From Paludibacteraceae bacterium (lineage in GTDB: Bacteria > Bacteroidota > Bacteroidia > Bacteroidales > Paludibacteraceae), in assembly GCA_024400275.1 (NCBI GenBank), contig JAKSMY010000066.1, positions 1-8,907 of the forward strand: a stretch of 8,907 bases of DNA, read 5' to 3'. Position 1 is the first letter of the stretch. Each line of letters opens with the position of its first letter. The position numbers were made by a program, and so were the translations under genes. The notes beneath the pieces are model-generated. The model was not told the DNA's origin. It did not search any database and saw only the letters and a program-made list of their open reading frames with translations. This document shows positions 6,513-8,907 of the stretch, piece after piece.

Positions 6513-8525
6513 ATCCGGTTAATAGATGTCATACTACCTCTTGCTATTCGAGATGTGTACACTTATAGTGTACCGGAAAGCATGCCATGCCCTCAATCGG
6601 GCATGCGTATTTTGGTACCACTTGGACGGAAAGTAGCTGTCGGTATTGTTCTGGATGACCACAAACAGCCGATAGACCCTGCTATACATATTCGTGATAT
6701 CATACAGATATTAGATTCCTATCCTATTCTTACCAAAGAACAAATTCATCTTTGGACATGGATAGCCGATTATTATATGTGTCCCATTGGAGATGTAATG
6801 GCGGCTGCATTACCGGCAAAAGCTTTGGATTATCACTACACAATGGACAGCTGTTCAAAAAGGAAAATCAATTTAGATACTTTTTCAGACTCAACAGAAC
6901 CTTTTAAGACATTAACGACTGCCCAACAAATAGCCAAAGAACAAATCTTACAACAGTGGCAGAAACATGATATTGTGTTACTTCAAGGAGTTACTTCTTC
7001 CGGAAAAACAGAGGTATATATTCATCTGATTGCAGACATACTTGCACAGGGGAAACAAGTATTATACCTCGTTCCTGAAATAGCTCTTACCACTCAACTT
7101 ACCAATCGCCTGCAACGTGTATTCGGGAATATGTTACGAGTTTATCACTCGCGTATTACAGATGCCCGGCGCATGGAGATATATCGTCAACAACGTTTAG
7201 ACCCACACCCACGATTGATTGTTGGTGCAAGATCGGCGGTGTTTTTACCGTTTACCAATCTCGGACTTATTATTATAGATGAGGAACATGAGTCTTCCTA
7301 TAAGCAACAGGAACCGGCACCACGTTATCATGCTCGTTCCGTAGCATCTATTATGGCACAACAGGTTGAAGCCCATGTTCTCCTTGGCACAGCCACACCA
7401 TCTATAGAAAGCCGCTATAATGCCGAGCAAAATAAATATGGTTTTGTATCGCTCTCGGAACGCTATCAGGGATTACATCTCCCACATATCACCTTGATAG
7501 ACTTGCAACAACAATATCATCGTTTAGAAATGATTGGACACTTCTCCAACCCATTGATTGTACGTATAAAAGAGGAGTTAGAGAACGGAAAACAAATCAT
7601 TTTATTTCAAAATCGTCGTGGCTATGCGCCATACATCCAATGTACACAATGCGGCACTATTCCCAAGTGCGATGACTGCGATGTCAGTCTAACTGTTCAC
7701 AAAAACATTCGACAACTCGTTTGCCATTACTGTGGTAAAAGCACTCCTATACCGACAATATGTCCACATTGTGGAGGAGAAGTACAGATACATGGTTTTG
7801 GAACAGAACGTTTGGAAGAAGAGGTACAAACACTTTTCCCGCAAGCACGAGTAGCACGTATGGATTTAGATACCACACGCAAAAAAAACGATTATGAAGA
7901 TATTATCACCGCCTTTTCCAATCATGAAGTAGATATACTTATCGGCACACAAATGGTAACCAAAGGACTACATTTTGATGATGTCAGTTTAGTAGCCGTT
8001 CTGAATGCAGATCAGTTACTTTCCCAACCGGATTTTCGGAGTACGGAACGTGCATATCAGATGTTGGAACAGGTTAGCGGACGAGCCGGACGAAAAGGCA
8101 AACAAGGAGAGGTCATTATCCAAACTTTTGACGTTCAGAACGCTGTTTTTCAATATATTAAGCAGCACAATGCAGAAAAGATGTACCATGACCAGATAGC
8201 AGAACGTAAAACATTTCATTTTCCTCCATTTTATCGCCAAATCAGCATTACGATTCGTCATGCTGATATGAATAAACTTAATATCGCAGCCGCATTTTTT
8301 CAGGAACGACTAAGACTGTCATTTGGCGATAGGATTACACAGGTTATTACTCCATCAATAACACGCATTCAGAAATGGCATATTCGCCAAGTTCACTTAC
8401 GTATTGAAAAACAAGCCAATTGGAACAAAGCAAAGCAAATACTCTGTCAACAAATAGAGTACTGTTCTTCTATCTCTATTTTCAAAGGGGTTCAGATACT
8501 ACCGGACGTTGATCCATTGCAGTAA
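6513..8525 (+). CDS. priA: Primosomal protein N' (replication restart helicase PriA), non-canonical start
   Basis: PriA is a 3'-to-5' superfamily 2 DNA helicase that binds stalled forks and reloads the replicative helicase. Counting from the GTG at 6555: Walker A GVTSSGKTE at 145-153, DEEH box at 242-245, motif III GTATPS, eight zinc-binding Cys in four CxxC pairs (363/366, 372/375, 390/393, 403/406), motif V GTQMVTKGLHFDD, and motif VI QVSGRAGR. All expected motifs are intact. The start is odd. GTG 6555 would delete the conserved first strand LIDVILPLAIRDVYTYSVP, which is encoded in frame from 6519. The frame is open only back to the preceding TAA (6498-6500) and contains no ATG, GTG or TTG before 6555. 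ATC at 6513 matches the start position of E. coli PriA (670 aa); ATT at 6501 is the alternative (674 aa). Last gene of the operon. Confidence 0.93.
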   Translation: MRLIDVILPLAIRDVYTYSVPESMPCPQSGMRILVPLGRKVAVGIVLDDHKQPIDPAIHIRDIIQILDSYPILTKEQIHLWTWIADYYMCPIGDVMAAALPAKALDYHYTMDSCSKRKINLDTFSDSTEPFKTLTTAQQIAKEQILQQWQKHDIVLLQGVTSSGKTEVYIHLIADILAQGKQVLYLVPEIALTTQLTNRLQRVFGNMLRVYHSRITDARRMEIYRQQRLDPHPRLIVGARSAVFLPFTNLGLIIIDEEHESSYKQQEPAPRYHARSVASIMAQQVEAHVLLGTATPSIESRYNAEQNKYGFVSLSERYQGLHLPHITLIDLQQQYHRLEMIGHFSNPLIVRIKEELENGKQIILFQNRRGYAPYIQCTQCGTIPKCDDCDVSLTVHKNIRQLVCHYCGKSTPIPTICPHCGGEVQIHGFGTERLEEEVQTLFPQARVARMDLDTTRKKNDYEDIITAFSNHEVDILIGTQMVTKGLHFDDVSLVAVLNADQLLSQPDFRSTERAYQMLEQVSGRAGRKGKQGEVIIQTFDVQNAVFQYIKQHNAEKMYHDQIAERKTFHFPPFYRQISITIRHADMNKLNIAAAFFQERLRLSFGDRITQVITPSITRIQKWHIRQVHLRIEKQANWNKAKQILCQQIEYCSSISIFKGVQILPDVDPLQ

Positions 8526-8544
8526 CCAATCAAGTATATCATAC

Positions 8545-8668
8545 GTCGCGCACTCTATCCTCATACATGTACCAAACACCGTTTGGTAGTAAGTACTCGG
8601 ATGAGTACGCTCCTCCCCAACACGCAAGCGTGCCGGGGACCCCATTAAGGAGAGTAGGCAGCAACGCC
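8545..8668 (-). ncRNA. Candidate structured RNA, copy 1
   Basis: Read on the minus strand the core forms three hairpins. 8638-8615 gives a 10-bp stem with two G-U pairs and a CUUG loop; 8608-8593 is GUACUC/GAGUAC with loop AUCC; 8588-8570 is an 8-bp stem with loop GGU. AGAGT (8651-8655 on the + strand) can pair with ACTCT (8552-8556) to enclose all three. The upper closing helix seen in copy 2 is missing because the 5S-like tail is absent at 8544. It does not match any RNA family I know, and transcription is unproven. Confidence 0.35.
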
Positions 8669-8670
8669 AC

Positions 8671-8708
8671 ATAAACAAAGAAGCCCTGAGATTTCTCTCA
8701 AGGCTTCT
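8671..8708 (-). terminator. Rho-independent terminator 1 (minus strand)
   Basis: On the minus strand a 13-bp stem (arms 8708-8696 and 8691-8679) with a GAAA loop is followed by TTTGTTTAT. One stem pair is G-U; on the + strand it would be A-C, and no T-run follows on that side. This directs transcription leftward, away from the 5S gene. Confidence 0.75.
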
Positions 8709-8712
8709 GAAA

Positions 8713-8849
8713 GTGGAGGCTACCTGTCGCGCACTCTATCCTCATACATGTACCAAACACCGTTTGGTAGTAAGTACTCGGATGAGTACGCTCCTCCCCA
8801 ACACGCAAGCGTGCCGGGGACCCCATTAAGGAGAGTAGGCAGCAACGCC
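8713..8849 (-). ncRNA. Candidate structured RNA, copy 2, with 5S-like closing strand
   Basis: The three hairpins are those of copy 1, at 8819-8796, 8789-8774 and 8769-8751. Here the closing helix is longer. GCUGCC (minus strand, 8843-8838) pairs with GGUAGC (8724-8719) with one G-U, and ACUCU pairs with AGAGU inside it. The second strand of this helix is the duplicated 5S tail. The unit lies between two minus-strand terminators, the downstream one at 8671-8708. It could be a processed by-product of rrn transcription, a separate RNA, or merely a repeat. Confidence 0.4.
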
Positions 8850-8903
8850 CATAAACAAAGAAGCCCGAGATTGCTCTCGAGCTTCTGAAAGTGGCGGCTA
8901 CCT
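8726..8903 (-). repeat. 178-bp tandem repeat, copy 2 (proximal to 5S)
   Basis: The core 8726-8849 is identical over 124 bases to copy 1. It is followed by its own terminator hairpin and by the genuine 5S tail, which continues past 8903 as ACTC. In copy 1 the corresponding place is joined to GTCGCGC instead. This fits a tandem duplication with one breakpoint inside the 5S 3' end. Confidence 0.9.
8851..8886 (-). terminator. Rho-independent terminator 2, end of the rrn operon (minus strand)
   Basis: A 12-bp stem with GCAA loop is followed by TTTGTTTAT on the minus strand, directly after the 5S tail. Compared with terminator 1, stem bases have changed in pairs so that pairing is kept and the loop remains a GNRA tetraloop. 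This is the expected place for the terminator of an rrn operon ending in 5S. Confidence 0.8.
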
Positions 8904-8907
8904 ACTC
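8887..8907 (-). rRNA. rrf: 5S ribosomal RNA, 3' end only (runs off the window)
   Basis: The minus strand reads GAGTAGGTAGCCGCCAC then TTTC, matching the conserved 3' end of Bacteroidales 5S rRNA (GAGAGTAGGTAGCCGCC). A terminator follows at once. Only about 17-20 nt are visible. Helix I of 5S is self-complementary, so a short fragment could be read on either strand; the ACCTACTC side and the minus-strand terminator settle the direction. Confidence 0.65.

Follow-up and report, generated by a model that had tools for sequence, protein, structure and literature searches.

Small mobile palindromes are already known, and hairpins and extragenic sites are typical of the REPs. Other elements, such as the tRNA-targeting integrative elements of the tyrosine recombinase type, replace the 3′ end of the gene that they split and can occur as arrays at one target. 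Base pairing with the surroundings of an insertion is a feature of the group I introns, where P1 and P10 pair with the 5′ and 3′ exons; the known self-splicing introns are far larger than the element core described below. IS608, which moves as single-stranded DNA, pairs with a tetranucleotide, and this pairing has been lengthened by engineering (PMC5934647).

Here we report on a structured repeat found in a window of 8,907 nt, the whole stretch of DNA that was analysed, which comes from a Paludibacteraceae bacterium (contig JAKSMY010000066.1). A preliminary description had tied this repeat to the neighbouring 5S rRNA gene. We find instead that its core is a dispersed element, of a family so far unnamed, which occupies gene borders in a group of uncultured bacteria. 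The repeat is structured and mobile, and at some of its targets only it bears an arm that resembles a guide.

Two tandem units behind a 5S rRNA gene

Two head-to-tail units of 178 and 181 nt lie on the minus strand of the window, between the end of the 5S rRNA gene and the convergent priA gene (Table 1). They share a 124-nt repeat of 100% identity (8545-8668 = 8726-8849, spacing 181), together with further repeats of 23 nt at the 5S end (96%) and of 17 nt beside the terminators (100%). Read on the minus strand, the 5S end is followed by a terminator, an arm complementary to the 5S end, and the P2 and P3 domains, the latter running to CGCGA. After the CGCGA of unit 1 come a copy of the 5S end and again a terminator, arm, P2 and P3, whereas unit 2 is without a gene-end copy after its P3 and is separated from the priA stop codon by 19 nt only (8526-8544). 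With the part of the 5S end present in the window, the arm of unit 1 forms a 15-bp duplex of -27.2 kcal/mol. The tandem arrangement seen in the preliminary description is therefore real, with its 124-nt repeat and a fold at z -8.9 (see below). Its account of the minus-strand loops is correct as well: CUUG closes the GC-rich core hairpin, and GCAA and GAAA the terminators of units 1 and 2. The 10-bp hairpin likewise has the two G-U pairs described.

Table 1. Features of the two units and their neighbours in the window
Feature	Position	Strand	Basis
5S rRNA gene 3′ end	8891..8907	-	identity to the 3′ ends of 5S genes in L081 and L096
Predicted insertion point	between GAGT (8904-8907) and AGGTAGCC (8903 downward)	-	analogy with L081 and L149
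Unit 1 terminator hairpin, loop GCAA, then T-rich	8853..8886	-	sequence; fold of the homologous unit 2 hairpin
Unit 1 arm (guide-like), complementary to the 5S 3′ end across the insertion point	8830..8850	-	
Unit 1 P2 hairpin, GGGGUCCCC...GGGGA, two G-U pairs, CUUG loop	8795..8824	-	fold of the identical unit 2 stretch
Unit 1 P3 core, ending CGCGA and followed by C	8726..8793	-	R1 covariance-model match, 76.6 bits; covariation
Second 5S 3′-end copy AGGTAGCCTCCAC, opening unit 2	8713..8725	-	direct repeat; like the copy in L081 and L149
Unit 2 terminator hairpin, loop GAAA	8673..8708	-	fold
Unit 2 arm, complementary to the 5S 3′ end	8649..8670	-	same as the unit 1 arm save the 5′ edge
Unit 2 P2 hairpin	8614..8643	-	fold
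Unit 2 P3 core	8545..8612	-	R1 covariance-model match, 76.6 bits; sequence
priA, convergent neighbour	6555..8525	+	ORF of 656 aa; name by eye, not domain search

The window includes only the last ~17 nt of the 5S gene, the remainder lying outside. This end was identified by its identity to the 5S ends in genomes G001 (L081) and G008 (L092, L096), not by Rfam, and the earlier 5S label is thereby borne out. The record stops within the 5S gene, a common assembly break point, and assembly could in part account for the exact identity between the two units. The relatives of the PriA protein put the window close to uncultured Bacteroidales, the best being 70% identical, and several of the records are named Paludibacteraceae or Candidatus Colicola. 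Of two rrn ends in genome G008 (L092 and L096), one has a truncated 5S-linked unit and the other has no unit.

A fold kept by covariation

The minus strand of 8546-8726 folds with -91.4 kcal/mol against -56.1 +/- 4.0 for shuffled sequences (z -8.9, reached by 0 of 200), whereas the plus strand of one unit shows a weaker fold (-65.9 kcal/mol, z -5.2). Both-side changes occur in 10 of the 23 pairs among the seven founding sequences, and in 21 of 23 (220 cells) among 62 distinct rows, with 0 of 500 shuffles as high. The share of paired cells in these 62 rows is 92.1%, whereas shuffles give 74.8% and slid controls 56.5% at the most; these figures come from an alignment fitted to the covariance model, which favours the structure. 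That the fold is under selection is strongly supported. Across the family, the element strand holds 67 G-U against 13 A-C cells (two weak pairs, 6-138 and 7-137, being excluded from this count and from those of the inner loop and of the antisense folds given below), which makes the minus strand of the window the folding strand. The strand polarity described earlier thus extends to the whole family. From this polarity, selection on a minus-strand RNA had been proposed; the selected fold stands, as the covariation attests, but polarity does not prove an RNA product, since a fold of single-stranded DNA yields the same G-U polarity.

Loops of the C(GNA)G type are very stable in DNA, and the inner hairpin loop reads CGNAG in 25 and CGNGG in 11 of the 62 rows, which is at most a hint of a DNA fold. 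A P2-like hairpin pattern stands beside 44 of the 64 distinct copies, and 48 of the 64 have the right end CGCGA. As the preliminary description had it, no named family accounts for the shape: there is no Rfam match in the window at the gathering score, and the best one below threshold in 8500-8907 is BjrC68 on a terminator, a terminator-like match of 21.5 bits against 39. At 20 loci, Rfam searches (E<=0.5) returned tRNA, 5S, cobalamin and one antisense-to-tRNA match only, none of them on the element.

Copies scattered over gene borders

When the genomes of ten relatives were searched with one unit, the match was strong in G001 (E 1e-53, behind 5S) but partial in G008, G005, G002 and G006; in the first matches read, the core followed 5S, tRNA-Gln and a protein gene. 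A covariance model built from the P3 domain of seven sequences found 11 places in 6 of these ten genomes and 58 places in 21 of the 41 genomes of the genus of G002 (E<=0.1 in both cases). Farther out, among 81 genomes sampled from the family of G001 it matched only 2 (E<=0.01 and stricter Infernal filters), BLAST matched 1 of 61 genomes in a family sample, and an exact pattern searched order-wide matched 1 of 393. Three weak places among the 67 genomic matches (L124, L143, L144) were excluded from alignment and reading, and the 66 copies read comprise the remaining 64 and the two of the window. Carriage by phages is not supported, as two exact patterns had no match in viral_contigs, and nothing recognised as the element turned up in the literature, most subscription journals being outside the scope of that search. 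A conserved linkage to priA was rejected, as another sequence follows priA in L001-L008.

The preliminary description had put forward, as an inference, a link of the units to 5S maturation, anti-termination or a stable small RNA. However, only 6 of the 66 copies adjoin a 5S end: four follow one (both in the window, L081 and L149) and two face one from the other side (L128, L175). Moreover, in the window the core lies behind both the 5S end and its terminator. A role in 5S maturation or anti-termination is not supported. The core is for the most part a scattered repeat unrelated to rrn, largely the outcome that the preliminary description named as speaking against its reading, although the compensatory changes that it called for are present. 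The structured sequence behind 5S is in this way explained without inventing a ribosomal RNA function.

The other copies that could be placed by eye, with crude gene calls behind these placements, lie at tRNAs, protein genes and 5′ leaders, and some are antisense inside operons. Seven end right at a start codon (L120, L133, L135, L141, L142, L169, L170), while an eighth ATG at the end of a copy (L138) looks like chance, and three stand at the 5′ end of a tRNA (L122 by tool, L123 and L163 by eye). In at least four antisense copies (L137, L139, L148, L157), no more than 1 nt separates the CGCGA end from the stop codon of the gene opposite. Antisense copies keep the fold, with 201 of 208 cells paired in ten rows chosen by eye against 1125 of 1171 in the other 57 rows, so that the fold is independent of the direction of host transcription. 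Further placements are those before rpmI (after infC in L178) and after rplT, seen in L178, L179, L160 and L168 with names given by eye, and a weak copy (L180, 27.8 bits) just upstream of a cobalamin riboswitch.

Sites with and without the element

As expected of a mobile element, orthologous sites without the core exist for three loci, with implied inserts of ~125, 182 and ~137 nt. Site 1 is L148, in an operon of G460, and its query matched 58 of 61 genomes. The flank matches abut, with an overlap of 1-2 nt, in G458, G471, G497, G492, G488 and G462, which gives the insert of ~125 nt; by eye, 0 nt lie between the genes in L242, L243 and L245, and two or three in L244. In G457 (L268, G457:C9:21800-22300), where the operon is shared with L148, a core of another type (B, see below) occupies the very same point, and in G466 (L269) the spacer looks unrelated. 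The elements of G460 and G457 at one point could also reflect an old insertion lost cleanly elsewhere. The left parts of L268 and L148 are similar and AT-rich. Target duplication at L148 is at most 2 nt, unlike the long gene-end copies found at tRNA-Phe and 5S, and no convincing guide was seen at this site.

Site 2 is the tRNA-Phe of G488 (L162), with the 182-nt insert. The anchor was found in 9 of 12 regions, 7 of which are empty; L233 (G462) has a short type E core preceded by a left module of like kind, and L237 (G491) a guide-like remnant only. Site 3 (L170) lies between two genes of G478, and the element there is common to L251 (G502) and L252 (G483). Stop and start are 2-3 nt apart in L261, L262 and L263, from three genomes, hence the insert of ~137 nt; L258 (G459) retains a 10-nt remnant, CCAGCGCGAT, and unrelated spacers are found in L256, L259, L260 and L264. 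The left flanks of insertions vary (GAGT, GTTC, TTAT, TCAT), with no fixed tetra- or pentanucleotide target.

Gene-end copies and a complementary arm

A particular anatomy recurs at 5S (window, L081, L149), tRNA-Gln (L117, L121, L164) and tRNA-Phe (L162), and also at a small protein family (L115, L131, L134, L151, L132 and others). The gene runs up to the insertion point and is followed by a copy of its own end, the arm, P2, P3, CGCGA and the gene end again, with a terminator between the gene-end copy and the arm at RNA genes. Because the element carries a copy of the gene's own 3′ end, the split gene stays whole. In a direct-repeat test, 8 of 64 copies exceed the 99% control, the copy beginning 0-1 nt past the element (two of the 66 copies, L180 and one window unit, were dropped for their short flanks), and in L081 the near-identical copied stretch extends into the terminator.

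Around the insertion point, pairing between arm and target was seen in all 12 of the copies tested, which were picked by eye and do not include L147, L154, L155 and L164, the last being near-identical to L121. The duplexes have a mean energy of -21.8 kcal/mol, whereas 94 swapped pairs have one of -10.1 and shuffled arms one of -11.3. Seven of the twelve beat every swapped pair (best -16.7), the other five, all from the small protein family, do not exceed the best of these, and only five of the twelve lie beyond the 1% tail of shuffled guides (-23.6). Duplexes reach 15-23 bp at 5S and tRNA targets, and in the protein family the pairing falls partly or mostly inside the element. The arm varies with the target: GGTATGTT pairs with AACATACC in L131, and GGAAAGTT with AACTTTCC in L134. 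Arm and gene-end copy belong to a minority of copies, most showing neither a tested arm nor a copied end.

At the protein-gene loci, the ORF continues into the element-borne end in L131, L132, L134 and L151, and in L115 by eye, while L126 lacks any ORF of >=60 aa and L147 contains a frameshift. Five of the seven such loci read (L115, L131, L132, L134, L151) have a downstream gene-end copy that looks intact, and in the other two (L126, L147) it is ruined, a mixture that does not decide between a restored gene and splicing. The proteins concerned form a small multicopy family (~130 aa, with an 'SGALxK'-like start) that has elements at either its 5′ or its 3′ end (L115, L126, L131, L132, L134, L135, L147, L151, L169); the two checked, L135 and L169, had no Pfam match. 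After tRNA-Gln, L117 shows an array made of a type A unit, a gene-end copy, a terminator, an arm, a type E unit and a third gene-end copy.

Other core types

Cores of other types were read as type B (L115, L175, L127, L172, L195, L268), D (L099, L104) and E (L117, L233). Types B and D follow the same P2 hairpin as type A, the fuller copies of type B (L115, L172, L175, L195) end in CGCGA, and at tRNA-Gln and tRNA-Phe type E comes after the same left modules, matched to the target. The element family may thus be modular. A further one, type C, precedes start codons (L120, L133, L135, L141, L142, L169, L170, L251 and L252, on the 5′ side of the ATG). In it, the loop of the leading hairpin pseudoknots with a strand after P3; 20 of 44 pairs changed on both sides and 95.3% of the cells are paired, as counted on the same nine sequences from which the pseudoknot was drawn by eye, with L135 and L141 one column off in one helix. 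That this pseudoknotted fold of the start-codon copies is kept at an orthologous site suggests a role in place.

Search for a partner enzyme

Eleven Y1 matches were found in 8 of 17 genomes, and no element flanks the loci of these Y1/RAYT-like matches. Such genes are present in 15 of the 21 genomes with the element and in 11 of the 20 without it (Fisher p 0.34; G483 was counted as negative in this tally despite its diverged copy, L252). A RAYT/Y1 partner is thus not supported, as these genes neither flank the element nor track it. L196 and L199 encode RAYT-like proteins (386 and 356 aa, respectively) that match Y1 weakly, and L196 has its own, different repeats beside the gene. Reverse transcriptases occur in 4 of the 17 genomes and are not supported as partners either, not being flanked by the element; their loci gave one chance-level R1 match (L208, 9.6 bits, E 2.7). 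Among the Y1/RAYT-like and reverse transcriptase genes searched, no enzyme is linked to the element.

Possible nature of the element

The element has a covarying fold, scattered copies, orthologous sites free of the core and a near-fixed right end at CGCGA; at some targets, it also has an arm complementary across the insertion point and a gene-end copy that keeps the gene whole. It is probably a mobile element of the non-autonomous kind, ~110-180 nt long, which inserts as a folded single strand or by way of one. The P2 and P3 hairpins would be bound by an enzyme supplied in trans, and the arm just 5′ of P2 may pick or hold the target strand, by analogy with the guide of IS200/IS605. Conserved gene ends would be safe sites because the element brings the gene end back, and the tandem pair of the window would stem from a second insertion or a local duplication. 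The chief difficulty for this reading is that the arm and the gene-end copy belong to a minority of copies. The intact downstream gene-end copies (five of seven) also count against such an element, since restoration alone would not call for them, and so do the lack of a linked enzyme among the genes searched and the suggested role in place of the start-codon copies. This mobile-element reading yields testable predictions regarding target complementarity, strand and enzyme.

A bolder proposal, which we advance tentatively and hold to be rather unlikely, is that of a new class of minute strand-guided elements. Each would combine a fold, an 8-23 bp guide and a replacement gene end, and would be placed by base pairing, either as single-stranded DNA or as reverse-spliced RNA. 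Cores A, B, D and E, which share P2, the right end or left modules and can take the same point, would then belong to one modular system without a protein of its own.

An RNA with its own cellular function, either cis-regulatory or a stable small RNA, spread by duplication, would widen the idea of the preliminary description and is an unlikely explanation. Strong covariation would fit it, and so would type C, which stands directly before start codons with a conserved pseudoknot and is kept at one site in G478, G502 and G483. However, the neighbours of the copies are unrelated, antisense copies fold equally well, a terminator separates the 5S or tRNA from the core, and presence is patchy (21 of 41 genomes), with orthologous sites that lack the element.

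We regard as quite unlikely that the element is a miniature intron-like RNA, the arm of which would pair with the 5′ exon and the copy of the 3′ exon, and which would be spliced out or reverse-splice. The arm does span the insertion point, the 3′ boundary is near-fixed (48 of the 64 distinct copies have CGCGA), the frame is kept, by eye, when the outer parts of L115, L131, L134 and L151 are joined, the downstream gene-end copy looks intact at five of seven protein-gene loci, and complex pseudoknotted relatives exist. Yet the core is far smaller than the known self-splicing introns, the unspliced gene is already complete, and the downstream copy is ruined in L126 and L147 and absent after unit 2 of the window, whereas some copies are antisense in operons and a quite different core sits at the same point in L233 and L268. 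As precedent, a group II intron of Clostridium tetani is reported to be alternatively spliced in a surface-layer gene (PMC3919590).

Movement of REP-like palindromes by RAYT/Y1 transposases is very unlikely: Y1-like genes are present in the genus, and hairpins and extragenic sites are REP-typical, but the 11 Y1-match loci hold no element, L196 has different repeats, and there is no co-occurrence with Y1/RAYT genes (p 0.34). Least probable is a template switch or recombination that copied gene ends, inverted and direct, around a structured spacer, for although an inverted arm with a direct copy is the expected fold-back product, and the near-identical copied stretch of L081 runs into the terminator, dozens of sites have one and the same conserved core and right end, and compensatory changes among them.

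Comparison with known systems

Like group I and group II introns, the element has, at some targets, a guide-like arm that pairs with the upstream target, and it has a nearly fixed 3′ boundary; unlike them, it is much smaller, leaves the gene intact without splicing and is matched by no Rfam intron model. With the tRNA-targeting integrative elements it shares the replaced gene 3′ end and the arrays at one target, but it is under 200 nt, has no integrase in the unit, and not all copies have a duplicated end. REP/REPIN sequences with RAYT are reported to be likewise small, extragenic, palindromic and scattered (PMC3733652), whereas the element has a larger covarying fold, a target-complementary arm at some sites, and no linkage to RAYT genes, either by flanking or by co-occurrence. 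The IS110 bridge-RNA elements are also reported to match a structured nucleic acid to the target (PMC11208160); in contrast to the bridge RNA, the P3 internal loops of the element are conserved and not target-variable.

The likeness to the ends of IS200/IS605 elements such as IS608 lies in the subterminal hairpins. It may extend to the guide, which in those elements stands immediately 5′ of the left hairpin and pairs with target left in the left flank: the arm pairs in all 12 gene-end copies tested, though partly or mostly inside the element in the protein family, and no guide was seen at L148. It may extend as well to insertion without a large target duplication, which is the case at the L148 site, while long gene-end copies stand at tRNA-Phe and 5S. 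Unlike IS200/IS605, the element showed no Y1 (HUH) transposase, either within it or beside its relatives (11 Y1 loci), its unit carries a replacement gene end, its P3 fold is conserved in detail, and there is no fixed tetra- or pentanucleotide target. Its pairing, unlike that of IS608, covers 15-23 bp at 5S and tRNA targets and is not seen at other sites. If the mobile-element reading is true, long guided pairing, obtained for IS608 by engineering (PMC5934647), would here occur naturally, in an element of <200 nt that has a target-complementary arm and leaves the split gene whole.
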